DNA from: Lachnospiraceae bacterium G41
Lineage (GTDB): Bacteria > Bacillota > Clostridia > Lachnospirales > Lachnospiraceae
Direction of reading: 5' to 3'
Length of the DNA: 64,000 bases
Assembly: GCA_900100245.1 (NCBI GenBank)
Contig: FNEU01000009.1
Coordinates: 62,001-126,000, forward strand
Both the position numbers and the translations under genes were made by a program. The notes under the pieces are model-generated. The model was not told the origin of the DNA, did not search any database, and saw nothing but the letters and a program-made list of their open reading frames with translations. Position 1 is the stretch's first letter. Every line of letters starts with the position of its first letter. This document shows, in pieces, positions 668 to 60,667 of the stretch.

Positions 668-698
668 GGTGCCTGGCTCACGCAGTGTGCCTGGCTCC
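668..698 (+). repeat. 31-nt mismatch-spaced hairpin, copy 1 (alpha-galactosidase leader)
   Basis: The 5' arm reads GG-T-GCC-T-GGC-T-CAC, then a GCA loop, and the 3' arm is complementary except that the spacer bases form T/T mismatches. The element ends 18 nt before the preferred start of the alpha-galactosidase and just before its ribosome binding site. Read as protein it gives the artefactual string VPGSRSVPGS, which extends the open reading frame upstream. It belongs to a seven-copy family in this window. Confidence 0.8.
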
Positions 699-716
699 GA
701 CAAAAAGGTAGAAATT

Positions 717-3149
717 ATGATACTCACAAAAGACGGCAGATTTGTACTTTCAACCAACAATACAACATATGCTTTTGACACACTTGCGACCGGTCATTTA
801 GAGCATCTTTATTACGGCGCGCGCATAGATTTTTCAGACGATCTAAAAGAGTTTGAAGTAATCAAACCAAAGCGTGAATTCGCTCCCGGAAATGTCATCT
901 CGTATGATGAAGAGCATCAGTCATTTGCGCCCGAAGATACATGCTTTGAAATATCATCATCCGGCAAGGGAGATTTGCGTTCTCCTTTTGTTGGCATAGT
1001 ACATTATGACGGCAGCAGAACAAGTGATTTTATCTACGAAAGTCATGAGATAAAAAAGGGTAAAGAAGAGAGAAAAACTCTGCCCGGTTCGTATGATGAA
1101 AACGGAGCCTGCGAGACTCTTATTATCACCCTAAAAGATAAAAGCTACGATGTAAAACTTTTATTATATTACGTGGTTTACGAAGACAAGGATGTCATTG
1201 CAAGATACGCCGATTTAATCAACGAGGGCGAGGAAGAAATAAAGCTTGAAAGGCTTTTAAGTCTTCAGCTTGATATGAATGAATCGGACTATGAGGGCAT
1301 ATTCTTTGCGGGAGCATGGGCAAGAGAAATGCAAAGCTACAGGACACGCATTTCAAATGGTATGCATGTAAGCCGAAGCAACACGGGTACGAGTTCAAGC
1401 CGCGCTAATCCGTTTTTTATGATTGCAAAAGAAGAGACCACTGAAGACATTGGTGAGTGCTTCGGATTTAATCTTATCTACAGCGGAAACCATATGGAAA
1501 TAACCGATGCGAATTCGTTTGGAAAGGTGCGTATTCAGTCGGGAATCAACGATGAGGGATTTTTATATTCTCTTAAAAAAGGCGAAATCTTCGAAGCGCC
1601 GGAAGCTGTTATGTGCTATTCGGACAAAGGATTTAATCTTTTAAGCAACCGCCTCCATGAGTTTGTAAGAGAGAATATTGTTCGCGGCGAATGGAAGAAG
1701 AAAGAACGCCCTGTGTTAATTAATAACTGGGAAGCCACATACTTTAAATTCGATGAGGATAAGCTCGTAAAAATAGCGAAAAAAGCCGCCGAGGTCGGCA
1801 TCGAATTATTCGTAATGGATGACGGATGGTTCGGCGAGAGAAACGACGATACTTCTTCATTGGGCGACTGGGAAGTTAACAAAAAGAAAATACCGGGCGG
1901 CCTTGAAGGACTGTGTAAAAAAATCAACAAACTCGGTCTTTCATTCGGACTCTGGGTTGAGCCTGAAATGGTCAATGTGAAGAGCAAGTTATACGAAGCA
2001 CATCCTGACTGGTGTCTTGCAAATCCCGATACTCCGCACTCCGAAGGCAGACATCAGAGAATGCTGGATTTAACCAAAAAAGAGGTAAGGGATTACTTAA
2101 TCGAATCACTTTCAAAGGTATTTTCATCTGCCAATATAGAGTACGTTAAATGGGACATGAACAGAATTCTGTCAGACATTTATTCACAGGGAATGCCGGC
2201 GGAATTTATGGGCGAAATTACGCATCGATATGTGCTGGGACTCTATGAAATTTTAGGAGAATTAACAAAGCGTTTTCCGAAGATTTTATTCGAAGGATGT
2301 TCTTCAGGCGGCAACAGATTCGACCTTGGAATTCTTTGTTTCTTCCCGCAGATCTGGGCATCGGACAATACAGATCCCATCTGCAGGAGCGAGATTCAGG
2401 AAGGCTTAAGTTACTGCTATCCGTTAAATACAATCGGTGCGCATGTTTCCGCATCGCCCAATCATCAGACGCTTAGAAAAACACCGATGAAAACAAGGGC
2501 TGCGATTGCTTCCTTCGGGTGCTTTGGATATGAATGTAATTTGAGTGATTTTTCCAAGGAAGAAATAGAAGAGATTAAGAAAGAAATTACGCTTTACAAG
2601 GCATACAGAAGCGTGATGCAGTTCGGAGACTTTTATCGTGGAGGAAAAGGCCCCGCAAGGCTTAATCCCTCGTCTTCAACGAGTGCATTATCCAATCCTT
2701 CGGGATGTGGCAATATAACCGAATGGACGGTAGTTTCCAAGGATAAAAACGTGGCTGTCGGAATGATGCTTAAAAAGCTTGCACTTCCGAATACTCAGAA
2801 TACAATCTATCATCCCAAGGGGCTTGAGAAAACGGCTGATTATCTTTTCGTAAACAAAGAACTTGAGTACGATATCAGAGATTTCGGAGACCTCGTAAAT
2901 ACGATTTCACCGATTCATTTAAAGCAAAATTCGCTTCTTTTAGACATTATTGCAAAGAAGATTAAACTTCCGAGTGAAAAGGAAAATTATGTGGCAAACG
3001 GCAGGCTTTTATGCACCGCAGGCGTCAGACTCTGTCAGGATTTTGCAGGTACAGGATATAACGAAAACGTCCGTTATGCGCAGGATTTTTCCACGAAAAT
3101 GTACATAATGGAGAAGATTGAGAAAAAAGACGAAGAAACGGCCGATTAG
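717..3149 (+). CDS. Alpha-galactosidase, glycoside hydrolase family 36
   Basis: An 810-residue cytoplasmic enzyme (no signal peptide) expected to hydrolyse terminal alpha-1,6-galactosides. The GH36 signatures are present: DDGWFGERNDD in the barrel, KWDMNR with the nucleophile Asp480, CSSGGNRFDLG, and SDNTD with acid/base Asp550. The N-terminal beta-sandwich, central barrel and C-terminal sandwich fit the usual family length. I place the start at ATG 717, preceded by AAAGGTAG. An in-frame ATG at 663 exists, but the stretch between is translated hairpin repeat with no ribosome binding site. It follows a GPH symporter, which supports a transport-plus-hydrolysis pair for raffinose-family sugars. 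Confidence 0.93.
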   Translation: MILTKDGRFVLSTNNTTYAFDTLATGHLEHLYYGARIDFSDDLKEFEVIKPKREFAPGNVISYDEEHQSFAPEDTCFEISSSGKGDLRSPFVGIVHYDGSRTSDFIYESHEIKKGKEERKTLPGSYDENGACETLIITLKDKSYDVKLLLYYVVYEDKDVIARYADLINEGEEEIKLERLLSLQLDMNESDYEGIFFAGAWAREMQSYRTRISNGMHVSRSNTGTSSSRANPFFMIAKEETTEDIGECFGFNLIYSGNHMEITDANSFGKVRIQSGINDEGFLYSLKKGEIFEAPEAVMCYSDKGFNLLSNRLHEFVRENIVRGEWKKKERPVLINNWEATYFKFDEDKLVKIAKKAAEVGIELFVMDDGWFGERNDDTSSLGDWEVNKKKIPGGLEGLCKKINKLGLSFGLWVEPEMVNVKSKLYEAHPDWCLANPDTPHSEGRHQRMLDLTKKEVRDYLIESLSKVFSSANIEYVKWDMNRILSDIYSQGMPAEFMGEITHRYVLGLYEILGELTKRFPKILFEGCSSGGNRFDLGILCFFPQIWASDNTDPICRSEIQEGLSYCYPLNTIGAHVSASPNHQTLRKTPMKTRAAIASFGCFGYECNLSDFSKEEIEEIKKEITLYKAYRSVMQFGDFYRGGKGPARLNPSSSTSALSNPSGCGNITEWTVVSKDKNVAVGMMLKKLALPNTQNTIYHPKGLEKTADYLFVNKELEYDIRDFGDLVNTISPIHLKQNSLLLDIIAKKIKLPSEKENYVANGRLLCTAGVRLCQDFAGTGYNENVRYAQDFSTKMYIMEKIEKKDEETAD

Positions 3150-3163
3150 GTTTGTCCGAACAC

Positions 3164-3192
3164 TTGAAAAATAAGGGAAATTTCGATAAAAT
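3164..3192 (+). promoter_or_regulatory. Sigma-A-type promoter for the thrH-like gene
   Basis: TTGAAA and TAAAAT are separated by exactly 17 nt, 35 nt upstream of the start codon. The position just after the alpha-galactosidase stop suggests an independent transcription unit. Confidence 0.65.
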
Positions 3193-3227
3193 AGCACGTG
3201 GATTAAGATTATAAGGAGACAAACCAA

Positions 3228-3836
3228 ATGGGATTAAATGTAGCATGCCTCGATCTTGAAGGTGTTTTGGTACCTGAAATATGGATTGCTTTTTCGAAGG
3301 CAAGCGGAATCGAAGAATTAAAGATTACCACAAGAGACGAGCCTGATTATGATAAGCTTATGAAATACAGACTGGCTATTCTTAAGGAGCACGGATTGGG
3401 CCTTAAGGAAATCCAGGATACTATCGAAAAAATCGATCCGCTCGACGGAGCAAAAGAGTTCCTCGACGAACTTAGAGATAATATGCAGACCATTATCATC
3501 AGTGATACTTTCGAGCAGTTTGCAAAGCCTCTTATGAAGAAACTCGGTATGCCCACACTTTTCTGCAATTCACTTATTGTCGGTGACGACGGTATGATTA
3601 CAGGCTATAAGATGAGATGTGAGAAATCCAAACTCACAACTGTAAAAGCATTGCAGAGCTGTGGCTTCGATACCATCGCAACAGGCGACAGCTTCAACGA
3701 CCTTGCAATGATTCAGGCTTCAAAAGCAGGTTTCTTATTCAGAACCACCGAGCAGATTAAGGCTGATTATCCCGAACTTCCCGCGTATGAAGAATACGCT
3801 GATTTGCTTGCTGCTTTTAATAATGCTGCGAAGTAG
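3228..3836 (+). CDS. thrH: ThrH-like phosphoserine phosphatase / homoserine phosphotransferase
   Basis: A 202-residue HAD-superfamily protein. Motif I is CLDLEGVLVPE, with nucleophile Asp9 and Glu11 in place of the usual second Asp, which is the hallmark of ThrH. Motif II is IIISDTF, and the C-terminal metal motif is GDSFND. In Pseudomonas ThrH dephosphorylates phosphoserine and can move the phosphate to homoserine, linking serine and threonine synthesis; that function is assigned here by family. The start has a good upstream site (AAGGAG). It has its own promoter. No other serine or threonine gene is nearby. Confidence 0.85.
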   Translation: MGLNVACLDLEGVLVPEIWIAFSKASGIEELKITTRDEPDYDKLMKYRLAILKEHGLGLKEIQDTIEKIDPLDGAKEFLDELRDNMQTIIISDTFEQFAKPLMKKLGMPTLFCNSLIVGDDGMITGYKMRCEKSKLTTVKALQSCGFDTIATGDSFNDLAMIQASKAGFLFRTTEQIKADYPELPAYEEYADLLAAFNNAAK

Positions 3837-3854
3837 TTTTTGAATGGATTAAAA

Positions 3855-4325
3855 ATGAACGGACCCATATACAATTTTTTTTACACCCGCACGGTTGGGG
3901 AGCTGATGTTTATACTCTGGATAGTAATGGCTTTGGCCGAGATATTTTTATCTTTGCTGAAGCTTGTAATAAACATTATCTCAAATGCTTTTATCTTAAA
4001 AAAAGCGGGTGAACAACCCTGGAAAGCTATTGTCCCGTATTATGGATTTTACACAGTTTGTGACATTTCCTGTAACAAACCTACGACAATCGTAATGACT
4101 GTAATTAAAGTCGCAGGATACTTTCTTGGATTTATTCCTTTTCTTCAGATGCTGCCATATGCAAACAAGAGGGTGCAGGCACTTGCGGTTGCAAAATCAT
4201 ATGGAAAAGACACGGTTTTTTTAATTATTTCGTGCATTTTTCCTACCATCACAAAAGCTATAGTAGCTTTCTCTTCCAAAAGCACATATACCGGAGAAAA
4301 ATTGGTTTTATTACCTGAAAATTAA
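3855..4325 (+). CDS. Small polytopic membrane protein (DUF5684-like)
   Basis: About 156 residues with roughly four hydrophobic segments. The loop KKAGEQPWKAIVPYYGFY resembles the conserved core of DUF5684 proteins, in which a Lys-Ala-Gly-Glu motif precedes a Trp-Lys-Ala-Pro stretch between two helices. Function is unknown; some relatives are attached to signal peptidase-like proteins. Start choice is uncertain: an in-frame TTG at 3840 is possible, but I prefer ATG 3855; neither has a strong ribosome binding site. The gene follows thrH by 18 bp and is closed by a terminator, so the two are probably cotranscribed. Confidence 0.6.
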   Translation: MNGPIYNFFYTRTVGELMFILWIVMALAEIFLSLLKLVINIISNAFILKKAGEQPWKAIVPYYGFYTVCDISCNKPTTIVMTVIKVAGYFLGFIPFLQMLPYANKRVQALAVAKSYGKDTVFLIISCIFPTITKAIVAFSSKSTYTGEKLVLLPEN

Positions 4326-4363
4326 TAAATCTGAATATACTTTTGACAACTAAGAATTCCCTA

Positions 4364-4390
4364 AAATAGCCCTTTTGAGGGCTATTTTTT
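4364..4390 (+). terminator. Intrinsic terminator after thrH and the DUF5684-like gene
   Basis: Ten-base-pair stem AAATAGCCCT / AGGGCTATTT with a TTTG loop, followed by a run of T. Confidence 0.85.
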
Positions 4391-4549
4391 GTTTTCAAAA
4401 ATTATTTTTCGTGATTATTCACAAACTTTATTTATTATGTGTTTTCATATTGATTTTGAAAAAATGGAATGATACGATACAAACAAGCAAGATATTTCTT
4501 TTGTCGGATTCCCGACATCGGAGTTGTTTAAACAACTTTCCCGGAAAAA

Positions 4550-4582
4550 TTCCTGCATTATAAACCAAATTATTTGCAGGAA
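4550..4582. repeat. Inverted repeat upstream of the Rpn-like nuclease gene
   Basis: TTCCTGCA (4550-4557) and TGCAGGAA (4575-4582) form perfect 8-nt arms around a 17-nt AT-rich centre. A third partial copy (ATTCCTGCGG) follows at about 4586. The same gap holds two further palindromes, GTCGG/CCGAC near 4503-4515 and GTTGTTTAAACAAC near 4523-4536. They may be regulatory or the remains of a mobile-element end. Confidence 0.5.
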
Positions 4583-4608
4583 ATGATTCCTGCGGAAAGG
4601 ATGTATTT

Positions 4609-5484: not shown

Positions 5485-5541
5485 CAAACATAAAAGAAAA
5501 AAAAAAGGGAAATGAAATTGTATTTTAAGGTGAAATGATTA

Positions 5542-6072
5542 ATGAAAAAGATACTTTTAAACGTGGTGATAATAGTCTTTTTAGCAGGTCTTTTCGGGTG
5601 CAATTGGGGAAATCCTTTTGATGTTTCGGATTCTGCAGTAAAGCATAATTTCAATAAAAGTAATCTCTTATCATTAATCTCGATAACGGTAGATACAAAT
5701 AAAGTCATTTATGAATTTGATGCAAAATCAAAGATTTGTGAAACAATTGAGCAAAACAACTTTGATTGTTGTATTGAAGATGAAAATGGAATTTTAAATG
5801 ATTACAATAATTGGACATATCAAAAAAAGGGAAGTAAAGGATATTTATGCATAGAATGCGAGGATATAAATCGAATAAAAAAGGATATGAGAATATGGGA
5901 GAAATATGATTGTTATATAATTGAAGGTTTTGAAAATCCGGTTGTAACAATATTTACTTATAATGATCCTGATTGGTACAGTGTTGTGTATTCGCAAGAG
6001 TATGATTCAAAATCAAATAAATGGGGCGAAATTGAAACTGATGGTGTTAAAGATCCCAATACTGTAAATTAA
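5542..6072 (+). CDS. Orphan lipoprotein
   Basis: A 176-residue protein with a signal peptide and lipobox (LAGLFGC, Cys near residue 20), so it should be lipid-anchored on the outer face of the membrane. The mature part is polar with several Cys residues and a C-terminal WYSVVYSQEYDS stretch. I recognise no domain. Its coding sequence is markedly AT-rich compared with genes from 6.1 kb on, like the Rpn-like gene upstream, suggesting that the two arrived together. The start has a weak site (AAGGTGAAATGATTA). Confidence 0.6.
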   Translation: MKKILLNVVIIVFLAGLFGCNWGNPFDVSDSAVKHNFNKSNLLSLISITVDTNKVIYEFDAKSKICETIEQNNFDCCIEDENGILNDYNNWTYQKKGSKGYLCIECEDINRIKKDMRIWEKYDCYIIEGFENPVVTIFTYNDPDWYSVVYSQEYDSKSNKWGEIETDGVKDPNTVN

Positions 6073-6100
6073 TTGAAAATAATATATTTGATTGAAATAA

Positions 6101-6122
6101 AAAAAGGACTTTCGTCCTTTTT
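6101..6122. terminator. Bidirectional intrinsic terminator
   Basis: AAAAAGGAC / GTCCTTTTT with a four-base loop, between convergent genes (orphan lipoprotein on plus, dapL on minus). It supplies a T-run on both strands and abuts the dapL stop codon. Confidence 0.85.
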
Positions 6123-14018: not shown

Positions 14019-14049
14019 TGAGCCAGGCACGCTTCGCGAGCCGGGCACC
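14019..14049 (-). repeat. 31-nt mismatch-spaced hairpin, copy 2 (purF leader)
   Basis: On the minus strand the 5' arm is GG-T-GCC-C-GGC-T-CGC with loop GAA and a complementary 3' arm, apex triplet CGC/GCG. Spacers are T/T and C/T mismatches; the outermost pair is broken. It ends 15 nt before the purF start, on the sense strand, directly before the ribosome binding site, between pyrG and purF. Confidence 0.8.
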
Positions 14050-22209: not shown

Positions 22210-22241
22210 GGTGTCAGGCACCCTTGCGGGAGCCGGACACC
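22210..22241 (-). repeat. Mismatch-spaced hairpin, copy 3 (asnB leader)
   Basis: On the minus strand the 5' arm is GG-T-GTC-C-GGC-T-CCC, with a GCAA tetraloop and a complementary 3' arm ending in A-CC. Compared with the other copies, the third block is GTC/GAC instead of GCC/GGC, a paired compensatory change. It ends 31 nt upstream of the asnB start. Confidence 0.8.
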
Positions 22242-22264
22242 GATAATATAGATTATTCTTTTCC

Positions 22265-22295
22265 AGTGCCCGGCTCCCGAAGGGTGCCTGGCACC
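22265..22295 (+). repeat. 31-nt mismatch-spaced hairpin, copy 4
   Basis: The plus-strand 5' arm is AG-T-GCC-C-GGC-T-CCC, loop GAA, then the complementary arm. The apex triplet is CCC/GGG, and the outer spacer has become a T-A pair. It is antisense to asnB. Confidence 0.78.
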
Positions 22296-22318
22296 GATAA
22301 TTTAGATTATTCTTTTCC

Positions 22319-22349
22319 AGTGCCTGGCTCCCGAAGGGTGCCTGGCTCT
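22319..22349 (+). repeat. 31-nt mismatch-spaced hairpin, copy 5
   Basis: The plus-strand 5' arm is AG-T-GCC-T-GGC-T-CCC, loop GAA, and the 3' arm ends in CT, so the outer AG pairs with CT (GG with CC in most other copies). It lies 3 bp beyond the amt stop codon. Confidence 0.78.
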
Positions 22350-22352: not shown

Positions 22353-24113
22353 TTACTCAACGTCCTGAAGTGCATCAAAACCTTCTTCGCCGGTACGAAC
22401 CTTTACAACGTTTTCAACGTCATATACAAAGATCTTGCCGTCGCCGATATGTCCGGTATAAAGGACTTTCTTGGCAGTTTCGATTACGTCTCTTACGGGA
22501 ACAGCACTTACTACGATATCAACCTGAATCTTGGGTAAGAGGTTAGCTTCAATCTGTACACCTCTGTAGTATTCCGGTTTGCCCTTCTGTACGCCGCATC
22601 CTAAAACATGGGATACTGTCATACCGGTAATACCGAGTTTCATCATTGCAGTCTTCAAAGATTCGAACTTTGCTTCCTTGCAGATGATTTCTACCTTTGT
22701 ATACTTGTGACCGTCGCCTGTAAATGTAGGCATCTTCTTTACTTCTACAGCTTCTGCAACGGGAACTTCGCCGGTTACTACAACAGGCTCAACCGCACCT
22801 TCTTCGATATATTCGGGCTGCATTGCAAATCCTGCATATGCTGAAGGAAGACCGTGTTCTGTCGAATCAAGACCTGTTAATTCTTCTTCTCTTGATACTC
22901 TAAGACCAACGATGGCTTTGATAATAAAGAATGCGATTGTGATTGTAACTGCTGTCCAGCCTGCAACGGTTACAAAACCAAGTAACTGAATTCCTAAAAG
23001 TTTAAATCCGCCGCCGTAGAACAAACCTGCCATCTGAACACCGTTTGCATCCGCGATTGAATAACCGGGAGCCGAAGGAGTAGCAAACAAACCTACAGCG
23101 ATTGTTCCCCAGATACCGTTCATACAGTGAACTGCTACTGCACCTACGGGGTCGTCTATTCTTAATACATAATCAAGGAACCATACACCGAATACTACAA
23201 GTAAACCTGATACTGCACCGATGCAGATGGCACCTGCAACATCTGTTACGTCGCAGGGAGCAGTGATGGCTACCAGACCTGCAAGTGATGCGTTTAAGCA
23301 CATTGAAACATCGGGCTTTTTATATTTGATCCATGTGAAGATCATACATACAACTGTTGCAACAGCGGGAGCTACGGTTGTTGTAAGGAAAATAGATCCT
23401 AACTGAGGAAGGCTTGTTGCAGCCGCACCGTTGAAACCGTACCAGCCAAACCAGAGGATGAATACACCCAAAGCGCCGATTGCGATGTTGTGGCCGGGGA
23501 ATGCGTTAACTTTAACAATTTTACCCTTTTCGTCTTTTGTGAATTTACCGATACGTGCACCGAGGATTTTCGCACCGATTAAAGCGGAGATACCGCCAAC
23601 CATATGAATTGCTGTGGAACCTGCAAAATCATGGAAACCAAGTCCTGCGAGCCAGCCGCCTCCCCAGATCCAGTGAGCCTCAATGGGGTAAATCAAAGCT
23701 GAAATAACAGCTGAATAAATACAGTATGATAAGAATTTTGTTCTTTCAGCCATTGCTCCGGAAACGATGGTTGCTGTGGTTGCACAGAACACAAGGTTGA
23801 AAACAAAGGATGAAAAATCAAAGTTATCATATGATGTGAAGAGGTCAAATCCGGGTTTACCGATAAATCCGAATAAATCCTCGCCCATGAGCAATCCAAA
23901 ACCGATTGCTATAAATACTACTGTACCGATACAGAAATCCATCAGGTTTTTCATGATGATATTTCCTGTATTCTTAGCCCTTGTAAAACCTGCCTCTACC
24001 ATAGCGAAGCCTGCCTGCATCCAGAATACGAGTGCAGCACCGATAAGGAACCAAACTGAAAACACTTCGTTGGAAACTGCTTCTTTCACTGTCATTAATA
24101 ATGTCTCATCCAT
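22353..24113 (-). CDS. Ammonium transporter with fused C-terminal PII (GlnK) domain
   Basis: About 586 residues. Residues 1-440 are an Amt channel with about eleven membrane helices; signatures include FWMQAGFAMVEAGF, GAMAERTK, the twin-His region HWIWGGGWL, and DDPVGAVAVHCMNGIWG. After a proline/valine-rich linker (about 445-470), the C-terminal 110 residues form a complete PII protein with T-loop KGKPEYYRGVQ, keeping the tyrosine uridylylated in enteric PII, and ending in GDGKIFVYDVENVV. PII normally plugs Amt as a separate trimer; here it is tethered. GGAG lies too close to ATG 24122, so ATG 24113 is the likelier start. It is probably cotranscribed with glnN. Confidence 0.92.
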   Translation of the reverse strand: MDETLLMTVKEAVSNEVFSVWFLIGAALVFWMQAGFAMVEAGFTRAKNTGNIIMKNLMDFCIGTVVFIAIGFGLLMGEDLFGFIGKPGFDLFTSYDNFDFSSFVFNLVFCATTATIVSGAMAERTKFLSYCIYSAVISALIYPIEAHWIWGGGWLAGLGFHDFAGSTAIHMVGGISALIGAKILGARIGKFTKDEKGKIVKVNAFPGHNIAIGALGVFILWFGWYGFNGAAATSLPQLGSIFLTTTVAPAVATVVCMIFTWIKYKKPDVSMCLNASLAGLVAITAPCDVTDVAGAICIGAVSGLLVVFGVWFLDYVLRIDDPVGAVAVHCMNGIWGTIAVGLFATPSAPGYSIADANGVQMAGLFYGGGFKLLGIQLLGFVTVAGWTAVTITIAFFIIKAIVGLRVSREEELTGLDSTEHGLPSAYAGFAMQPEYIEEGAVEPVVVTGEVPVAEAVEVKKMPTFTGDGHKYTKVEIICKEAKFESLKTAMMKLGITGMTVSHVLGCGVQKGKPEYYRGVQIEANLLPKIQVDIVVSAVPVRDVIETAKKVLYTGHIGDGKIFVYDVENVVKVRTGEEGFDALQDVE

Positions 24114-46551: not shown

Positions 46552-47757
46552 ATGAAAAAACTTTTAAGTGTTTTCCTTGCATGTCTTATGGTTTTATCCC
46601 TTGCTGCATGTACAGCAGGCGGAAAAGGAGGCAATGCAGCCAATGGTAAGGTTAAAGTAGGTTTCATTTTTTTACATGATGAAAACTCAACATATGACCT
46701 TAACTTCATCAATGCCGCTAAGGAAGCTTGTGAAAAAGCCGGCGTTGAATATGTATTAAAGACAAACATCCCTGAAGGCCAGGAATGCTACGAAGCAGCA
46801 TGCGAACTCGCAGATTCAGGCTGCAACATCGTATTTGCCGACAGTTTCGGTCATGAAGATTACTTAATCGAAGCTGCTAAGGAATACAAGAACGTGGAAT
46901 TCTGCCACGCTACAGGTACTAAGGCTCACACAGAGAACCTTCCCAACTATCACAACGCTTTTGCTTCTATCTACGAAGGTCGTTACCTTGCAGGTATCGC
47001 AGCAGGTATGAAGCTTAACGAAATGATTGCTAACGGCGAGATTACTCCCGAGCAGGCTAAGATCGGTTATGTAGGTGCTTACACATACGCAGAGGTTATT
47101 TCAGGTTATACATCATTCTTCCTCGGCGCTCGTTCAGAATGCCCTACAGCTACAATGGAAGTTACATTTACCGGTTCATGGTATGATGAGACAGCTGAAA
47201 AGGAAGGCGCTATCAAGTTAATCAACAACGGCTGCGTACTTATTTCACAGCATGCCGATTCAATGGGTGCTCCTACAGCTTGTGAAAACGCAGGTGTTCC
47301 CGATGTTTCTTACAACGGCAGCACAGAGAGCGTAGCCCCCAACACATTCATCGTTTCTTCACGTATCAACTGGGTTCCTTACTTCGAACTCATTATCAAG
47401 GCAGTACAGAACGGTGAGAAGATTCCTACAGATTACACAGGTACAATCGAAACAGGTTCCGTAGTTCTTACAGACCTCGGTAAGATTGCTCCCGCTGAAG
47501 GAACACAGGCTAAGATGGATGCAGTTAAGGCTGAAATCCAGTCAGGCCAGAGAAAGATCTTCGATACATCAGCATTTACAGTAGGCGGTTCACCTGTTAC
47601 ATCTTACATGGCAGACGTTGATACAGATCCTGCATACGAAGGCGATCATGAAGTTATTTCCAATGGTGCTTTCAATGAATCTGCAGACGGATTCAGATCA
47701 GCTCCTTACTTCGATTTAAGAATTGATGGCATTACACTTCTTGATGAATCATACTAA
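46552..47757 (+). CDS. BMP-family substrate-binding lipoprotein (nucleoside importer)
   Basis: A 401-residue protein with signal peptide and lipobox LAACT (Cys near residue 20). The mature part is a periplasmic-binding fold of the Bmp/Med/PnrA family (VKVGFIFLHDENSTYDLNFINAA, IVFADSFGHED, GRYLAGIAAG). PnrA-type proteins bind purine nucleosides. Codon use is more biased towards a few codons than in its neighbours, which suggests high expression. A terminator follows, giving more binding protein than transporter. Confidence 0.92.
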   Translation: MKKLLSVFLACLMVLSLAACTAGGKGGNAANGKVKVGFIFLHDENSTYDLNFINAAKEACEKAGVEYVLKTNIPEGQECYEAACELADSGCNIVFADSFGHEDYLIEAAKEYKNVEFCHATGTKAHTENLPNYHNAFASIYEGRYLAGIAAGMKLNEMIANGEITPEQAKIGYVGAYTYAEVISGYTSFFLGARSECPTATMEVTFTGSWYDETAEKEGAIKLINNGCVLISQHADSMGAPTACENAGVPDVSYNGSTESVAPNTFIVSSRINWVPYFELIIKAVQNGEKIPTDYTGTIETGSVVLTDLGKIAPAEGTQAKMDAVKAEIQSGQRKIFDTSAFTVGGSPVTSYMADVDTDPAYEGDHEVISNGAFNESADGFRSAPYFDLRIDGITLLDESY

Positions 47758-47773
47758 TATGTGATAAACTTTA

Positions 47774-47816
47774 GAAAGGCAGTGAGCGTGCTCGCTGACT
47801 GCCTTTCTTTTTTATT
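47774..47816 (+). terminator. Partial terminator inside the nucleoside importer operon
   Basis: Fourteen-nt arms GAAAGGCAGTGAGC / GCTGACTGCCTTTC with one mismatch, followed by TTTTTTATTTT. It lies between the binding protein and ATPase genes and should let only part of the transcription through. Confidence 0.85.
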
Positions 47817-47838
47817 TTGCGGATAATGGTGCAGATAA

Positions 47839-47869
47839 GGTGCCCGGCTCGTGTAGCGTGCCCGGCTCC
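47839..47869 (+). repeat. 31-nt mismatch-spaced hairpin, copy 6 (ABC ATPase leader)
   Basis: The 5' arm is GG-T-GCC-C-GGC-T-CGT with loop GTA and a complementary 3' arm ending T-CC. The apex triplet CGT pairs with GCG through one wobble. Spacers are T/T and C/C mismatches. It ends 19 nt before the ATPase start, on the sense strand. Confidence 0.8.
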
Positions 47870-47888
47870 GGATAATGTTGAGGTTAAT

Positions 47889-49448
47889 ATGGCAGAAGCA
47901 GCTGTAAAACTCGTAAATATCACAAAATCTTTCGGCCAGGTCAGGGCGAATTACAATGTTTCACTTGAGATTAACAAGGGCGAAATTTTAGCTCTTTTAG
48001 GAGAAAACGGAAGCGGAAAGACCACGCTTATGAATATGCTCTCGGGTATTTATTATCCCGACGAAGGACAGATTTTCATAGACGGCAAGGAAGTTTCAAT
48101 CAGCTCCCCTAAAATTGCATATGAACTCGGAATAGGCATGGTTCATCAGCACTTTAAACTGGTGGATGTATTAACTGCGACCGAAAATATCATTCTCGGA
48201 CTTGACGGCAAATTAAACAAAAAGGAAGCCGCAGCGAAGATAAAAGAGATCTGCGACAAATACGGATTTGACATCAATCCCGACCAGAAGATATATGATA
48301 TGTCCGTTTCCCAGAAACAGACAGTCGAAATCGTAAAAGTATTGTACCGTGGCGCCAATATCTTAATACTGGATGAGCCCACCGCGGTTTTAACCCCTCA
48401 GGAATCTGAAAAGCTTTTCAACGTTATGCGTAATATGAAGGCTGACGGAAAGGCTCTCGTAATTATCACTCATAAAATGCACGAGGTTGAATCAATCTCC
48501 GACAGAGTGGCTATTTTACGTAAGGGCGAATATGTCGGCAGCATGATGACCAAGGATACGAATGCCGGCGAAATGACCGATATGATGGTAGGCCGAAGCG
48601 TATCACTTAATATTGAGCGCCCCAAGCCTGTTGATCCCAAGCCCAGAATAAAGGTTGAAAACCTGACTGTTAAAAACATTGAGGGCATTGATAAATTAAA
48701 GGATGTTTCATTTATCGCAAACAGCGGTGAGATACTTGGTATAGCAGGTATTTCCGGCAGCGGTCAGAAGGAACTTCTTGAAGCGATAGCGGGATTACAG
48801 CCTGCCGAAAGCGGCAGCATAAAATATATAAACGAAAACGGTGAAGAGGAAGAACTCCTCGGCAAAGACCCGAGAAAGATTGAAGAATTAGGTGTTGCGT
48901 TATCCTTTGTTCCCGAAGACAGACTCGGCATGGGACTTGTAGGAAACATGGATTTATCCGACAACATGATGCTTCGTTCTTTTAGGAAGGGTAAGACACC
49001 TTTTACGGAGAGAAAATCACCGCACTCACTTGCAGAGAAAGTTGTAGACGATCTCGAGGTTGTAACTCCTTCCATCGAGACTCCCGTCAGAAGACTTTCG
49101 GGCGGAAATGTTCAAAAGATCTTAGTCGGAAGAGAAATTGCGCATGCGCCTACGGTTTTACTTACCGCGTATGCGGTCAGAGGACTTGATATCAACTCCT
49201 CCTACACGATTTACGATCTTATAAATCAACAGAAGAAAAAAGGCGTAGCGGTTATTTTTGTCGGAGAAGATTTGGACGTTTTGCTTGAGATATCCGATAA
49301 AATCCTCGTACTCTGCGGCGGCAGGGTAAGCGGTATCGTCGATGCCGAAAAGACCGACAAAAACACAGTCGGACTTATGATGACAAAAGTTTTAGGTGAC
49401 AGCGAAAAGAAAGAAGAGAGTACCGAAACGGGAGACAGTGATGAATAA
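47889..49448 (+). CDS. Nucleoside ABC importer, double ATPase subunit
   Basis: About 519 residues with two ABC domains. The first has Walker A GENGSGKTT, signature-region MSVSQKQ and Walker B ILILDEPTAVL; the second has GISGSGQKE, RRLSGGNVQK and a weak Walker B (VLLTAYAVRGLD), as usual in the RbsA/NupA-like family where the second site is degenerate. It powers the two permeases downstream. The start is ATG 47889 with TTGAGG upstream; a longer frame translates the hairpin repeat and is rejected. Confidence 0.93.
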   Translation: MAEAAVKLVNITKSFGQVRANYNVSLEINKGEILALLGENGSGKTTLMNMLSGIYYPDEGQIFIDGKEVSISSPKIAYELGIGMVHQHFKLVDVLTATENIILGLDGKLNKKEAAAKIKEICDKYGFDINPDQKIYDMSVSQKQTVEIVKVLYRGANILILDEPTAVLTPQESEKLFNVMRNMKADGKALVIITHKMHEVESISDRVAILRKGEYVGSMMTKDTNAGEMTDMMVGRSVSLNIERPKPVDPKPRIKVENLTVKNIEGIDKLKDVSFIANSGEILGIAGISGSGQKELLEAIAGLQPAESGSIKYINENGEEEELLGKDPRKIEELGVALSFVPEDRLGMGLVGNMDLSDNMMLRSFRKGKTPFTERKSPHSLAEKVVDDLEVVTPSIETPVRRLSGGNVQKILVGREIAHAPTVLLTAYAVRGLDINSSYTIYDLINQQKKKGVAVIFVGEDLDVLLEISDKILVLCGGRVSGIVDAEKTDKNTVGLMMTKVLGDSEKKEESTETGDSDE

Positions 49449-50529
49449 AAAAGAACCTTTATTTCACCTAGTTAAAAGAGATGTTCTCCCATGGTACAAA
49501 TCATGGGGAATTAGAGCGGCCGCAATAGTTGCTGCGCTTATATTATGCGGTATTATTACTACCATTACCACAGGCCTTAATCCGTTCAAAGTATACGGCG
49601 CATTTATCCAGGGTGCTTTCGGCTCCGGCAGAAAGGTCTGGATTACAATGCAGAATATGTCAGTCCTTTTAATCATTTCACTGGCTCTGACACCTGCATT
49701 TAAGATGCGATTTTGGAATATTGGTGGTGAAGGTCAGGTATTAGTCGGCGCACTTGCAACCGCAGCATGCATGATTACACTCGGAGATAAAATTCCGAAC
49801 GCACTGCTTATATTAATTATGACTGTAAGTGCAATTCTTGCAGGTGCAATCTGGGGTCTTATTCCTGCGATTTTTAAAGCAATTTGGAACACCAACGAGA
49901 CTCTTTCCACACTCATGATGAACTACATAGCCACACAGCTTGTAGCGTTCTTTACGATTGTATGGGAAGTTCCGAAGGGTTCTTTTACGGTAGGTATTAT
50001 CAATCAGTCAACAAATGCCGGATGGCTTCCTCAGCTTTTCGGTAACAAATATCTTCTTCCGATAGTGATTGCACTTTTGACCACGATTTCGATGTTTATT
50101 TATCTTAAATACAGCAAGCACGGTTATGAAATCTCGGTTGTCGGCGAAAGTGAAAAAACGGCTAAGTATGTCGGAATGAAAACGGAGAAAATCATCATTC
50201 GTACGATGCTTTTATCCGGTGGACTTTGCGGTCTGGCAGGACTTATTCTTGTCGGTGGCATAAACCATACGATTACAACCACAATCAACTCAGGACAGGG
50301 ATTCACCGCGGTTATGGTTTCGTGGCTCGCAAAATTCAATCCGATTACAATGATATTTACAAGCTTTCTGATTATTTTCCTTGAGAGAGGTGCGGGAGAA
50401 ATTTCCACCAACTTCGGACTTAATCAGTCATTTGCGGATATTCTGACGGGTATCATTTTATTCTTTATCATCGGATGTGAATTCTTTATCTCGTACAGAA
50501 TAGTAGTAAGAAAGAAGGGGGATAAGTGA
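49441..50529 (+). CDS. Nucleoside ABC importer, permease 1
   Basis: About 362 residues with eight to ten membrane helices, of the BPD_transp_2 group (RFWNIGGEGQVLVGALA, LSTLMMNYIA). The start overlaps the ATPase stop by 8 bp (ATG 49441), which fixes it. It forms the channel with permease 2. Confidence 0.92.
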   Translation: MNKKEPLFHLVKRDVLPWYKSWGIRAAAIVAALILCGIITTITTGLNPFKVYGAFIQGAFGSGRKVWITMQNMSVLLIISLALTPAFKMRFWNIGGEGQVLVGALATAACMITLGDKIPNALLILIMTVSAILAGAIWGLIPAIFKAIWNTNETLSTLMMNYIATQLVAFFTIVWEVPKGSFTVGIINQSTNAGWLPQLFGNKYLLPIVIALLTTISMFIYLKYSKHGYEISVVGESEKTAKYVGMKTEKIIIRTMLLSGGLCGLAGLILVGGINHTITTTINSGQGFTAVMVSWLAKFNPITMIFTSFLIIFLERGAGEISTNFGLNQSFADILTGIILFFIIGCEFFISYRIVVRKKGDK

Positions 50530-55027: not shown

Positions 55028-55116
55028 GTGGTCAACTTCATAAAATATGAGAAATATGGTATTATTATAAGTTGAGGATTTTAATAAAAGTTTCGGATAT
55101 TAAGGGAGAAGAAGCT

Positions 55117-55614: not shown

Positions 55615-55646
55615 AAAGGCAGATAACAGTTTATCTGAGCTAAAAT

Positions 55647-57716
55647 ATGTCAAATACTACTCCTAAAAGAAAAAAGAATAAAGTTTTAAAAATAGTAAGG
55701 AAAAATCCTATTTGGATTACTATTGCGCTTTGTATTGTAATTGCGTTAGTATCGGATGTTATTATTGTTTTGCTTTCTGAAACTATCGGCATGTATGTCT
55801 TTAATTCGAAAATTGGCGATGAATACGAAGCAGTGTCTTATATGGCAAAAATGTACGACATAGGCACTGATGAAAACGGCGGTGACATTTATGCTCTGTT
55901 AAATGAAGACGGAAGAAGCTATTTTATTACAGACACTCACGGAAATATATTATACGAGCACGGCTCCAACACTATGGGACACACTAACGGAAAGTTTAAG
56001 CTTCCCTTTACATCTCAGGGTGAAACAGAATTGAGAGTTTATCTTGACGATGTTACCGAAGGAGTTTTCGAACCCGATGAGGATGGAGAACTTTCGATTA
56101 ATGCAGCTTCAATGTTCAAATTTGCTACAAAAATGGGGGAAGAAATCAACCTCCAGATTGGAATAAAAAAGACTTCTTTGGAAGTACCGTTATGGATAGC
56201 CGTTGATGTAAAAGGCGGAAAACAGATTTTTTACGCAAAAGTATGTGGCAAAATAACCCCTTCCGACATGATATTTGTAGGACTTTTTGGCATCATTGGG
56301 TTTGTTCTTGTGACTTGTATAATAATTCTTATGCTGATCAATATGATAAACACATTGGTATATCAGAAAAGAATTTCCAAAGTATTCTTTACGGATCCTA
56401 TAACCCGAGGACATAACTGGATGTGGTTTTCTTTCCGAGGCGAACAACTTTTAAAGAAAAGAAGAAATGCTGCCACATCATATGCCGTACTCGATTTGGT
56501 ATTCGTGAAATTCAGAAATTACTGTGTCTGCCATTCGGTTATCGAAGGCGAGGAAATGCTTAACAAAGTGGATAAGGTATTGTCCGCCAACCTTAATAAA
56601 AAAGAACTTGCAGCACATTATGCGTCCGCTAACTTTGCACTTCTTTTAAAATTCAAGGACCGCGAAGAATTAAAGGCGAGAATTCAGCAGATAATCGACC
56701 AGCTTGAAAAGATTGGCGTAGACCATAAATTTACATTCCATGTCGGTGTTTATGTGGTAGAAAACATAACAGACGCAAAAGGCAGGGCTAAAAGAAGAAA
56801 AGATATTGATATCGAAAGAGAGTACAACAATGCCTGCACCGCAAGATCAACACTTGAAGAATGCGATGACTCGGGTATTGCTTTCTTTGACGAAAACCTT
56901 GTCGAAGAGCAAAAATGGATTGACACCGTTATGGAACATCGCAGGGGTGCTATAGAAAACGAAGAATACGTGATTTATTACCAGCCCAAATACGATCCGA
57001 AGCACAACAAACTTAAAGGTGTTGAAGCTCTTATCAGATGGAATTCGCCCGAACTTGGATTCAAGTCTCCGGGAACCTTTATTCCTATCCTCGAAAAGAA
57101 CGGTTTTATTCAGGAAATCGATCATTTTATGATTACACATGTTGCAAGAGATCAGAAGGCATGGCTTGACGCAGGATATGAGTGTGTTCCGGCATCCGTC
57201 AACGTTTCAAGAGCGCATTTTATCGAAGACGATCTGGCTGCGCAGATAAGGGATGCAGTTGACAAAGAGGGCTGTCCTCACAATCTGATTGAGATTGAGC
57301 TTACAGAAAGTGCTTTCTTCGATGACAAGAAAGCAATGATAGATACAATCTGCAAACTGAAAGACTATGGCTTTATGGTTTCTATGGACGATTTCGGTTC
57401 AGGCTATTCGTCTCTTAATTCACTCAAGGATATGCCTCTGGATATTCTTAAACTTGATGCGGAATTCTTCAAGGGTGATTTAAACGGTGGCAGAGGCGAA
57501 ATTGTTATTTCAAAAGCCATCGCTTTGGCGAAGAGTTTAAACATGTTAACCGTTGCAGAGGGTGTAGAATTTAAAGAACAGGTCGATTTTCTGGCCGAAA
57601 AAGGCTGCGATATGATCCAGGGTTACTTCTTTGCGAAGCCAATGCCCAAGGAAGAGTACGCAGAAAAGATGAACAGGACAATCCCAGTAGTACAGGAGAT
57701 TATCCCCGAAAATTAA
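55647..57716 (+). CDS. Membrane-anchored c-di-GMP phosphodiesterase with degenerate GGDEF domain
   Basis: A 689-residue protein: membrane helix (about 20-50), extracytoplasmic sensor-like region (about 50-195), second helix (about 205-232), a GGDEF-like domain (about 245-410) and an EAL domain (about 430-680). The diguanylate cyclase motif is lost (ASANFALL where GGDEF should be), while the EAL domain keeps VEALIRW, DDFGSGYSSL and QGYFF, so it should degrade c-di-GMP. A small hairpin CAGATAA / TTATCTG lies just upstream (55620-55637). Confidence 0.9.
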   Translation: MSNTTPKRKKNKVLKIVRKNPIWITIALCIVIALVSDVIIVLLSETIGMYVFNSKIGDEYEAVSYMAKMYDIGTDENGGDIYALLNEDGRSYFITDTHGNILYEHGSNTMGHTNGKFKLPFTSQGETELRVYLDDVTEGVFEPDEDGELSINAASMFKFATKMGEEINLQIGIKKTSLEVPLWIAVDVKGGKQIFYAKVCGKITPSDMIFVGLFGIIGFVLVTCIIILMLINMINTLVYQKRISKVFFTDPITRGHNWMWFSFRGEQLLKKRRNAATSYAVLDLVFVKFRNYCVCHSVIEGEEMLNKVDKVLSANLNKKELAAHYASANFALLLKFKDREELKARIQQIIDQLEKIGVDHKFTFHVGVYVVENITDAKGRAKRRKDIDIEREYNNACTARSTLEECDDSGIAFFDENLVEEQKWIDTVMEHRRGAIENEEYVIYYQPKYDPKHNKLKGVEALIRWNSPELGFKSPGTFIPILEKNGFIQEIDHFMITHVARDQKAWLDAGYECVPASVNVSRAHFIEDDLAAQIRDAVDKEGCPHNLIEIELTESAFFDDKKAMIDTICKLKDYGFMVSMDDFGSGYSSLNSLKDMPLDILKLDAEFFKGDLNGGRGEIVISKAIALAKSLNMLTVAEGVEFKEQVDFLAEKGCDMIQGYFFAKPMPKEEYAEKMNRTIPVVQEIIPEN

Positions 57717-57747
57717 ATTTAGATTTAACATTATTTTTTGAGGTTTT

Positions 57748-58824
57748 ATGAGCAAAAAAGTGGTTGTAGGTATGTCCGGAGGCGTCGACAGCGCCGTATG
57801 TGCATACCTCTTAAAAGAAGAAGGATATGATGTGATCGGTCTTACTCTTCGTGTCTGGGAATCATCCGACGGAGAAGAGAGCAGATGTTGCGAAATCGAT
57901 GATGCAAAATGCATAGCAGACCATATCGGATTTCCTTTTCATACTTTTAACTGTATATCGGAATTTGAACGAAATGTAACGAAGCCTTTTGTATGTGATT
58001 ATATAAAAGGAATGACTCCAAATCCTTGCATTGAATGCAACAGATACGTTAAATGGGAGAGGATGCTTTATTTTGCAAACATTCGTCAGGCGGATTTTGT
58101 TGCAACGGGGCATTATGCTTCGGTAGTTAAGCTTGATAACGGCCGCTATACCGTAAAAAAGGCTCTTCACGTCGAAAAAGACCAGACATATATGCTTTAT
58201 AAATTGTCCCAGGAGCAGCTTTCAAGAACATTAATGCCTCTTGGCAAATATTCAAAGGACGAAGTCAGAGAAATTGCAAGAAAAGCCGGAATAATCGTGG
58301 CAGATAAGCCCGATTCTCAGGAAATCTGCTTTGTTCCCGACGGTGATTATGCTAATTATATAGAAAAGAACACTTCGGAATTGATTCCGGAAGAAGGCAA
58401 TTTCGTGGATGAAGAAGGCAAAATCCTCGGAAAACACAAAGGAATCATACATTATACCATCGGGCAGAGAAAAGGTCTTGGCATAGCATTCGGTGTTCCT
58501 ATGTTCGTAAAAGAAATACGACCGGAGACGAATGAAGTAGTTTTAAGCGAAGACAAAGCTTTGTATAATGATGAGATATTTGTAAACGATCTTAATTTCC
58601 TTAGTATAGAAGATATTAAAGATGGCGAGGAAATACCTGCCAGAGTTAAGATACGTTACCGCCACGACGGAGAAAATGCCATCCTTACACGTTTTAATGA
58701 GGATACGCTTCGTATCGTATTTGAAAAGCCGGTTCGTGCGGCAACCGCAGGGCAGTCTGCCGTCTTTTATGATGAAAACGACTGTGTAATAGGCGGCGGT
58801 AAGATTATAAGAAAAACATGGTAA
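57748..58824 (+). CDS. mnmA: tRNA 2-thiouridine synthase
   Basis: A 358-residue enzyme thiolating U34 of Lys, Glu and Gln tRNAs. The PP-loop is GMSGGVDSAV; the catalytic Cys is in NPCIECNRYVKW; ATGHYA and DSQEICFVPDGDY, which holds the second catalytic Cys, follow. Length and order match MnmA. GAGG lies upstream of the ATG. Confidence 0.95.
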   Translation: MSKKVVVGMSGGVDSAVCAYLLKEEGYDVIGLTLRVWESSDGEESRCCEIDDAKCIADHIGFPFHTFNCISEFERNVTKPFVCDYIKGMTPNPCIECNRYVKWERMLYFANIRQADFVATGHYASVVKLDNGRYTVKKALHVEKDQTYMLYKLSQEQLSRTLMPLGKYSKDEVREIARKAGIIVADKPDSQEICFVPDGDYANYIEKNTSELIPEEGNFVDEEGKILGKHKGIIHYTIGQRKGLGIAFGVPMFVKEIRPETNEVVLSEDKALYNDEIFVNDLNFLSIEDIKDGEEIPARVKIRYRHDGENAILTRFNEDTLRIVFEKPVRAATAGQSAVFYDENDCVIGGGKIIRKTW

Positions 58825-58844
58825 TTAATTAAATAAGCAATATC

Positions 58845-58881
58845 AAAAATATCGGTTTCGCCGGGCGTCTCCGATATTTTT
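58845..58881 (+). terminator. Intrinsic terminator after mnmA
   Basis: AAAAATATCGG / CCGATATTTTT around a 15-nt loop with a further T-run. Confidence 0.82.
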
Positions 58882-58953
58882 TTAAAAAATATAAATTTTT
58901 TGTAACATTTTGAAAACCCAAGTTGTTTATCATGCAGAAAGCAGGGTAGAAAG

Positions 58954-59460
58954 ATGAACAGCGCTTCCACGAAAGAGATGGAAGAAATATATCTTAAATA
59001 CTGTATACCGCTTAAAAAGTATGTCGTTTCGATTTGCCGCAATCAGGACCTGGCGGACGACATAGTATCGGAAACTTTTTACAGGGCGATTAAGAATTAC
59101 GATTCTTTTACGGGTGGCAACCTCTTCGCCTGGCTGTGTACGATAGCTAAGAACATATATTTCAACCATTTGAAGAAAAAAGATAATATGAATGCATCGA
59201 TAGACGATGAAAACTTCATGGAAGTGGCCGGAAACACTAATGTTGAGGCTGAAGTCATGAAGAGAGAGGAACAAAGAAGGTTGGCGGAAAGCATAAATTC
59301 TTTGACTGATATCGAAAAAGAGGTTGTTAAGCTTCGTATCGATTCGGGACTCTCATTCAAGGAAATCGGAGATGTACTTCACAAAAGCGAAAACTGGGCA
59401 AGAGTAACTTTCTACCGCTCAAAAGAAAAACTGAAAGGAATGATGAATGATGAAGAATGA
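58954..59460 (+). CDS. ECF-type RNA polymerase sigma factor
   Basis: A 168-residue sigma-70 family protein with region 2 (NQDLADDIVSETFYRAI, FAWLCTIAKNIYFNHLKKK) and region 4 (LTDIEKEVVKLRIDSGLSFKEIGDVLHKSENWARVTFYRSKEKL). Upstream, TGTAACATTTTG at 58901 resembles the -35 of ECF promoters, so autoregulation is likely although the -10 is unclear. Its end overlaps the next gene by 14 bp. Confidence 0.92.
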   Translation: MNSASTKEMEEIYLKYCIPLKKYVVSICRNQDLADDIVSETFYRAIKNYDSFTGGNLFAWLCTIAKNIYFNHLKKKDNMNASIDDENFMEVAGNTNVEAEVMKREEQRRLAESINSLTDIEKEVVKLRIDSGLSFKEIGDVLHKSENWARVTFYRSKEKLKGMMNDEE

Positions 59461-60211
59461 TAAATGTTATTTAATAAGAGATTTACTTCCCTCATACATT
59501 GACGAACTAACCGGCGAAGAAACAAATAAAGAAATAGAAAATCATTTAAACGAATGTCCCGAATGCAAGAAGGCATATGAATCAATGAAGGGCGATATTC
59601 CGGGCGAAAAGGAAATCGAGACAAGCGCGGAATATGACGAGAAACTGATTAAAAAAATCGGTCAGGACGTTAAAAGAAAAAATGACAGATCGAAAGTTGG
59701 TTTTATTGTAGCGATTGTTTCGATAGTACTTCTTTTCATACTGCTTAATCTTCCTATCGTTCCGATCAGTCAGAAAAACATTTATGCAAAGATTACAAAA
59801 CCTTCACTGATGTTAGATTCCGCAGGACGAAAGTATAATAACGTGGAGGAAAAATCGGTTTTACTTTATGAGGATGAGGATGATTTTGATGAAGTATATT
59901 TCCACAAGGTTATTTTCAAAGATTCAAGCATGGAAAATGACGGAATAATATACTATGCAACAGACAATGTTGATTTGATGAATTTCTCAATCGTGGAAAT
60001 CGATTCGAAGAAACCGATCAGAGCATACAAGACAAAGATTACAAGCTATGAAGGCGAAAATGTGATGGCTGTTTACGGCTTAAGAACTTCCGTACTCGGC
60101 AGCATCTTCGCAAGAAAAGATACAACATCCAAAGTAAACTTAGTTGATTCAAACGGAATTGAAGGAGTTTATCTTAAAAAGGGAAAGAAACTTGAAAATA
60201 TAGAATTATAA
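59447..60211 (+). CDS. Membrane anti-sigma factor with zinc-finger
   Basis: A 254-residue protein. The N-terminal zinc-finger is of the zf-HC2 type (LLPSYIDEL, HLNECPECKKAYE with HxxxCxxC), one membrane helix lies at about residues 82-103, and the C-terminal 150 residues are extracytoplasmic. It should hold the ECF sigma factor at the membrane until a cell-envelope signal arrives. Overlap of 14 bp with the sigma gene supports the pair. Confidence 0.9.
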   Translation: MMKNDKCYLIRDLLPSYIDELTGEETNKEIENHLNECPECKKAYESMKGDIPGEKEIETSAEYDEKLIKKIGQDVKRKNDRSKVGFIVAIVSIVLLFILLNLPIVPISQKNIYAKITKPSLMLDSAGRKYNNVEEKSVLLYEDEDDFDEVYFHKVIFKDSSMENDGIIYYATDNVDLMNFSIVEIDSKKPIRAYKTKITSYEGENVMAVYGLRTSVLGSIFARKDTTSKVNLVDSNGIEGVYLKKGKKLENIEL

Positions 60212-60601
60212 AAGGTCGGTTAATTTCTTACCATAAAAGAAATTGTGTACGAGTTCACCATACTCTTTCCACAAAGGAAGAGTAATGCAGGCAGATGCTC
60301 TGGGGCATTCTTCGGCTTTCTCCGCGAGACATGCTACCGGAGCAAGTGAACCTTCGGTTAATTCAATGATTTCACCTACCGTATATTCTTCGGGTTTTCT
60401 CTTTAATTTGTAACCGCCGCCTTTACCCGAAAGGCTGATAAGAAGGCCGCCCTCAACAAGATCTTTTATGATTATTTCCAAATATTTCTTGGAAATATTC
60501 TGTCTTTCCGCAATGTCTTTAAGCGGAATAAAACTCTCATTATCCTGTGATGCAAGATCAATCATTATTCTAAGTGCATATCTTCCTTTTGTAGAAATCA
60601 T
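60206..60601 (-). CDS. Rrf2-family transcriptional regulator
   Basis: A 131-residue winged-helix protein, MISTKGRYALRIMIDLA, with the wing LLISLSGKGGGYKL and three cysteines (CLAEKAEECPRASAC) able to hold an Fe-S cluster, as in IscR. It may control Fe-S assembly or cysteine genes, none of which are here. The start is ATG 60601 with AAGGCGG upstream; the frame to 60652 runs into the hairpin repeat and is rejected. It is convergent with the anti-sigma gene, overlapping by a few bases. Confidence 0.88.
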   Translation of the reverse strand: MISTKGRYALRIMIDLASQDNESFIPLKDIAERQNISKKYLEIIIKDLVEGGLLISLSGKGGGYKLKRKPEEYTVGEIIELTEGSLAPVACLAEKAEECPRASACITLPLWKEYGELVHNFFYGKKLTDLL

Positions 60602-60636
60602 ATATCTGTACCCGCCTTCTCTAAAAAGAAAACTTA

Positions 60637-60667
60637 GGAGCCTGGCTCGCACAGTGTGCCCGGCTCC
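60637..60667 (+). repeat. 31-nt mismatch-spaced hairpin, copy 7 (Rrf2 gene leader)
   Basis: The plus-strand 5' arm is GG-A-GCC-T-GGC-T-CGC with loop ACA; the 3' arm starts GTG, so CGC pairs with GTG by one wobble, and the outer spacer is an A-T pair. It ends 35 nt upstream of the Rrf2 start, but the pyrimidine-spacer strand is antisense to the gene. Confidence 0.78.

Follow-up and report, generated by a model that had tools for sequence, protein, structure and literature searches.

Repetitive extragenic palindromic sequences (REPs) are, in the broad sense, short (20-65 nt) imperfect palindromes present in many dispersed copies, which lie outside genes in unidirectional or convergent gaps and rarely in divergent ones. 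The available portions of the literature report that published REPs occur preferentially between unidirectional or convergent genes, commonly as inverted pairs (PMC3733652), that the foot of a canonical REP hairpin reads GT[AG]G (PMC6006769), and that repair of the stem mismatches of the Escherichia coli REP abolishes TnpAREP activity (PMC8266576). REP studies, as far as the parts of the literature examined go, centre on repeats linked to RAYT-type transposases, mostly from Proteobacteria, and the part of PMC8049555 that was available holds nothing on REPINs without RAYTs. Here we present a family of 31-nt hairpins, seven of which lie in a stretch of 64,000 nt from Lachnospiraceae bacterium G41 (assembly GCA_900100245.1, contig FNEU01000009.1, positions 62,001 to 126,000, forward strand; hereafter the window). 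The family shows all of the broad-sense REP properties named above, and probably represents a REP/REPIN-class population of short dispersed imperfect palindromes with at least 115 copies in this genome. It is filed here as REP-class in the broad sense, and is neither a GTAG REP family nor a REPtron. This Lachnospiraceae population is foot-less, mismatch-spaced, strongly sense-biased and without a detectable RAYT.

All seven hairpins that a sequence-only reading of the window had proposed were recovered at their positions and fold as that reading described. The copies, together with a tandem repeat that carries parts of them, are as follows.

668..698, plus strand: hairpin copy, sense, 18 nt upstream of the GH36 alpha-galactosidase start (717)
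14019..14049, minus strand: hairpin copy, sense, upstream of a purF-like gene (start 14003)
22210..22241, minus strand: hairpin copy of 32 nt with a 4-nt loop, sense, upstream of asnB (start 22178)
22228..22335, plus strand: two 54-bp direct repeat units, 91% alike, carrying hairpin parts; sister genome G006 has one unit fewer
22265..22295, plus strand: hairpin copy within a 54-bp tandem unit, antisense to the minus-strand genes on both sides
22319..22349, plus strand: hairpin copy in the second 54-bp unit, antisense to both flanking genes
47839..47869, plus strand: hairpin copy, sense, upstream of an ABC ATPase gene (start 47889)
60637..60667, plus strand: hairpin copy, antisense, 35 nt upstream of an Rrf2 regulator gene (start 60601)

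The distance from the nearest copy to a start codon is 15-35 nt at all five loci, as had been noted, with the starts listed above; that of the alpha-galactosidase gene was read by eye, the open reading frame (ORF) caller having placed it at 663. The nearest copy is in sense at four of the five, the exception being the copy before the Rrf2 gene. Pfam domains bear out the GH36 alpha-galactosidase, asparagine synthase, ABC ATPase and Rrf2 assignments; for purF the amidotransferase domains score above the cut-off and the phosphoribosyltransferase domain below it, so the gene is called purF-like. By these identities the host genes have no common pathway, in agreement with the earlier observation. 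A repeat search of the window placed six copies in one direct family (D1) and the copy at 22210 only partly in two others (D5, I15). With a 13-nt core and up to 3 mismatches, 18 near matches were found in the window, compared with a mean of 5.8 in shuffled sequence (0 of 100 shuffles as high). The end of the copy at 22319 lies 3 nt from the stop of a gene (22353-24113) for an ammonium transporter fused to a P-II domain, which adjoins asnB with three hairpins in between.

The complete assembly (G000; 2.59 Mb in 22 contigs, the window being 64 kb of contig C20) was searched with a covariance model, R1, built from the seven window copies. At E up to 1 the search gave 139 rows (150 of 300 first-look candidates scored), and a second pass at E 0.01 over 81 sources around those places gave 135 rows, reduced to 115 by removal of overlapping rows and antisense double hits. 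This search, which the sequence-only reading had recommended, establishes a dispersed family of at least 115 distinct copies. The E-values of the window copies in the genome-wide search (9e-10 to 5e-8) are not independent, as these copies trained R1; the other 108 did not. The hairpin is 31 nt long in 84 of the 115 copies. Inverted pairing, as in REPs and REPINs, is seen, yet 80 of the 96 loci are single (13 are double and 3 triple). Neighboring copies separated by under 30 nt make up 18 pairs, of which 15 are arranged head-to-head, 3 in tandem and none tail-to-tail.

The stem consists of three-pair blocks separated by three mismatches, and the consensus, drawn up by eye, is RGTGCCYGGCTC-N-C-RNA-G-N-GTGCCYGGCTCY. 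In the alignment of the seven window copies, 97.4% of the pair cells are paired (90.9% in shuffles) and three pairs are altered on both sides, which upholds the paired changes previously seen at the apex and in the stem. The proposal that the fold is retained through covariation also stood, with further covariation across 105 aligned copies (99 distinct rows) fitted to the model's own structure: 98.1% of the pair cells are paired, both-side changes occur in 109 cells against a shuffled mean of 30.8, and the covariation score of 0.295 exceeds those of shuffled (0.119) and slid partners (0.087 or less). The number of pairs with a both-side change in these 105 copies (5 versus 4.0) is not significant, being reached by 132 of 500 shuffles. 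Per-position composition was tabulated for the 84 copies of exactly 31 nt, leaving out the other 31. In this set the apex pair is GC in 35, CG in 30, AT in 17 and GT in 2 copies, the loop reads G/A-N-A in 75 of 84, and the three mismatch positions are pyrimidine-pyrimidine in 61, 76 and 77 of 84 copies. C-GNA-G loops form very stable DNA mini-hairpins.

Gene context was called with the ORF caller of this analysis, each locus taking the class of its first copy. The 96 loci comprise 66 in co-directional gaps, 21 in convergent gaps, 2 in divergent gaps, 4 called in a gene and 3 at the edge of the fetched stretch, where no gene was called on one side (C4, C9:333 and C17:109346). The copy at 668 was counted as 'in gene' owing to the caller start at 663 and was not reassigned; nor was the copy at C10:38550, which is wholly contained within the final 35 nt of an ORF as called. 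Copies called within ORFs are found at C6:23831, C9:251463 and C19:27161, the C9 copy standing 48 nt from the ORF end. Co-directional and convergent gaps together hold 87 of the 89 intergenic loci. Relative to the 49 gaps of the window (42 co-directional, 3 convergent, 4 divergent), convergent gaps are over-represented (odds ratio 4.7, Fisher P 0.01) and divergent gaps show a deficit in terms of gap bases (P 9e-7) that the number of gaps does not bear out (Fisher P 0.19).

The placement of copies just before start codons, prominent in the window, is at most a weak preference at genome scale. The tests were made on the 59 single co-directional copies, with doublets set aside. Within 40 nt of a start lie 41 of the 59, where uniform placement in these gaps predicts 38.2 (P 0.19), or 36.1 if 11 nt before the start are kept free (P 0.04). 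Between 11 and 35 nt from a start lie 38, compared with 22.2 under plain uniformity and 33.4 with the 11-nt clearance (P 0.06), and a single copy lies within 10 nt of a start where 13.9 are expected. Copies are therefore near-uniform in co-directional gaps except for about 11 nt clear before the start, and nearness to starts arises mainly from short gaps and ribosome-site clearance. The convergent gaps, which hold 21 of the 96 loci without any start alongside, further weaken the claim. Targeting of start codons as the main rule is not borne out by these tests, and a small start effect is possible (P 0.04-0.06). Targeting of stop codons was also rejected: 24 of the 59 copies lie within 10 nt of a stop, compared with 13.9 for uniform placement (P 0.0008), but 20.9 are expected with clearance (P 0.18).

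A few closely related species carry the family in large numbers. G003, G006, G013, G020 and G023 are copy-rich like G000, and G015, G026 and G010 are copy-poor. R1, applied with stricter filters and at most 62 scored candidates per genome, matched at least 10 of the 116 genomes searched as relatives (own genome included), all of them of this genus. In a collection of one genome for each of 84,980 species, which may not include records of the genome that the window comes from, a strict pattern matched 40 stretches in five metagenome-assembled genomes (MAGs) of Lachnospiraceae. The titles of three name rumen or abomasum; those of the other two contain RUG, which we take to stand for rumen uncultured genome. 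A second model, R2, matched one further genome among the 391 of the class, G201, from another genus of Lachnospiraceae (11 matches, mostly of 30 nt); as scoring was limited to 18 candidates per genome, weak or infrequent copies in other genomes may have been overlooked. The strict pattern had no match in viral contigs, and spread by viruses was rejected on that result.

Four of the five window sites (14019, 22210, 47839 and 60637) were compared with sister genomes. The copy at 14019 is absent in 9 of 9 relatives, and that at 47839 is present only in G013 among ten. G003 and one of two G023 contigs share the copy at 60637; G006, G026 and G010 lack it, and G013 shows a near-precise empty site. 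G020, which has other such hairpins there, and the second G023 contig are rearranged in this region. At 22210 an altered form of the hairpin occurs in G006, G013, G020, G003, G023 and G007 and none was seen in G015, G026, G010, G022 and G014, and the extra 54-bp units are variable. At other sites of the genome, the copy at C10:189916 is absent in G003, that at C17:425432 is absent in G003 and present in G006, the doublet at C22:89931/89975 is a single hairpin in G006, and the hairpin at C10:201909 is reduced to a half in G006. Where both flanks could be matched (47 copy-genome pairs), 11 were read as copy absent or partial. These differences indicate that gain, loss and rearrangement of copies distinguish the sister species. 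No clear target duplication was noted in the few empty sites seen. About 2.7 kb of the window (47000-49684) are 97% identical to contig C127 of G013 and 87-88% identical to G006, G023, G003 and G020, which looks like a recent recombination that brought the hairpin along.

A RAYT-type transposase, for which the sequence-only reading had suggested looking, was not found in the own genome with two profiles (PF01797 and the REP transposase profile NF047646) and one sister RAYT protein, and no RAYT was found in the three genomes richest in copies (G000, G003, G006). In G201 no match to PF01797 was obtained at E 10 and NF047646 gave only 12.8 bits; the completeness of G201 is listed as 100% and that of G003 as 89%, so the absence in G003 is weaker. 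Among 30 genomes of the genus, 18 match NF047646 at E 1 and 3 pass the cut-off. R1 found no hairpin copy in 13 RAYT loci of sister genomes (up to 1.5 kb on each side). Seven of these 13 loci were read by the ORF caller (L079, L080, L085, L090, L091 and L096 were not), and GGGACGG-type repeats adjoin the RAYT in six of the seven (L078, L081, L082, L083, L092 and L095), with none in view at L084. The RAYTs of L095, L081, L082 and L078 (in G013, G020, G023 and G015, respectively) are flanked by a different palindrome, GGGGACGGTTCTATTTTGG, and its variants; variants also occur at L083 and L092. This palindrome type is a second, RAYT-linked REP family of the same genus. In G000, PF01797 detected eight pieces at contig ends, four of them 5' and four 3', which are interpreted as an IS200-type element present in four copies. 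The pieces lie at the ends of C4, C8, C16, C21, C10, C13, C3 and C17 (L039-L046), and the assembly seems to be interrupted by these copies. A T run precedes each left end, with a terminator-like hairpin, as judged by eye, in at least three of the four.

Compared with GTAG REPs and REPINs (BIMEs) and their RAYT/TnpAREP, the family is alike in its imperfect palindromes of 20-40 nt, about 100 intergenic copies, inverted pairs, gap preference, kept stem mismatches and strand-specific fold; it is unlike them in having three mismatches, one every four positions, instead of one bulge, and in that no RAYT was found in the three copy-richest genomes. It does not constitute a REPtron, as no credible RAYT was found in G000, G003, G006 and G201 and no copy at the 13 sister RAYT loci. 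With the CGTC REPs it shares the apparent lack of a dedicated transposase, as far as these are described in the available part of PMC3733652, but CGTC stands at the 3' foot in 7 of 115 copies and at the 5' foot in none of 115. The end hairpins of IS200/IS605 elements are likewise folded single-stranded DNA hairpins with mismatches, and the resident element has 15 nt identical to the hairpin apex; the family, in contrast, is dispersed on its own and does not form transposon ends, and two copy-rich sister genomes have no Y1 match at E 0.01. Miniature inverted-repeat transposable elements (RUP, Bcr1, EFAR and others, named in PMC3733652) are also small non-autonomous dispersed repeats near genes, but the family lacks long terminal inverted repeats around an internal sequence, and no target duplication is clear in its few empty sites. 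None of 4227 Rfam families reached the gathering score in the window, so no match to a described structured RNA was obtained. The family is unreported in the titles and abstract openings of the literature matches listed for its core strings and for repeat names. The earlier remark that no named family is recognized in it holds as far as these searches show.

Sense orientation holds for 50 of the 59 single co-directional copies (P 5e-8) and for 48 of 56 when those of the window are excluded, a bias that suggests an additional role as an mRNA hairpin. Selection on a cis-acting mRNA element, which between operon genes would shield the upstream mRNA from 3' decay or tune translation downstream, would explain this orientation. 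It also fits the departures from pairing (G-T 20 versus A-C 6, P 0.009), an excess that marks the sense strand as the folded one, the more stable predicted fold of the sense RNA relative to the antisense in 93 of 111 copies of at most 33 nt, and the possible small start effect. A replication-strand bias was rejected, since orientation in convergent gaps matches the residual GC skew in 7 of 14, which is no signal; from this small sample the bias seems tied to transcription and not to replication. Nevertheless, the window host genes have no pathway in common, a number of copies are absent from sister species, convergent gaps hold 28 copies and, with doublets counted, 17 of the 74 co-directional copies run antisense, while insertion into the displaced strand of transcribed DNA could equally produce the orientation bias. 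An mRNA element as the explanation of the family is accordingly considered distinctly unlikely.

Transcription terminators amplified across the genome would be expected to carry T runs, and at least 4 consecutive T within 10 nt after the hairpin do occur on one strand in 14 of the 28 convergent-gap copies, on the other strand in 12 of 28, and on the transcript at 6 of 17 antisense co-directional copies. Such a run follows only 3 of 57 sense co-directional copies, which lie between genes of the same direction, and this origin is highly improbable. Mobilization by the resident IS200-type element is very unlikely as well. Its left end in G000 contains the 15-nt apex GCTCGCGAAGCGTGC, mismatch and GAA loop included, with related sequence in loci of G008 and G027, but PF01797 detects nothing at E 0.01 in G003 or G006, whose copy numbers are similar, and at E 10 it gives only a 13.6-bit match with two stops in G003 and none in G201; the ends of the element fold, by eye, into other hairpins, and so short a palindromic identity may be coincidence. 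Least credible is a double-stranded protein-binding site of two near-palindromic 11-mers, even though each half, GTGCCYGGCTC, is near-palindromic and the two form a direct repeat with a spacing of 18 nt: the kept same-strand T-T mismatches, the kept loop and the compensatory changes between the halves favor a folded single strand.

The REP/REPIN class thus remains the best-supported part of the earlier suggestion of a REP-like mobile palindrome favoring leaders, the leader preference being a weak reading. Several observations weigh against it. No transposition event was observed, and the 115 copies are 109 different sequences, so no recent burst is visible. The hairpin is still held in 36 of the 47 copy-genome pairs, a set that leans to shared sites because the loci of relatives were fetched as copy-bearing. 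Unlike GTAG REPs, the family has GTAG/GTGG at the 5' foot in 1 of 115 copies and the complement at the 3' foot in 2 of 115. The best NF047646 match in G000 (E 0.02) is a piece of the IS200 element, the sister RAYT protein has no match in G000, G003 or G006, and the RAYTs of sister genomes were rejected as drivers, those read mostly adjoining a different repeat.

If the family is REP-class, its copies would have moved in the form of folded single-stranded DNA by the action of a Y1 (HUH) nuclease reading the stem mismatches and the loop; this enzyme may since have been lost, or may act from elsewhere or in trans. Copies landing between genes would survive; where these are transcribed, the sense-strand hairpin may be tolerated, or retained for its fold in the mRNA, and may form part of a terminator in some convergent gaps. 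For the mover, loss of a RAYT, action in trans and an unrecognized enzyme are all possible. It is conceivable, if rather unlikely, that the roughly 100 copies in two genera arose without any known Y1/HUH transposase of the REP kind, through an unrecognized enzyme or through replication or repair copying the hairpins, in a manner that links insertion or survival to the transcribed strand. The family makes it testable what moves REPs without a RAYT, and whether REP orientation stems from insertion into transcribed DNA or from selection on mRNA, the sister species offering naturally paired alleles that differ by the presence of a copy.

An identical nested hairpin (GGGAACTTCGTTCCC core) was observed in the loops of three copies, at C17:203783, C17:298054 and C11:82055 (L113, L159 and L110, respectively). 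At the site of the third, G013 and G023 carry the plain hairpin.

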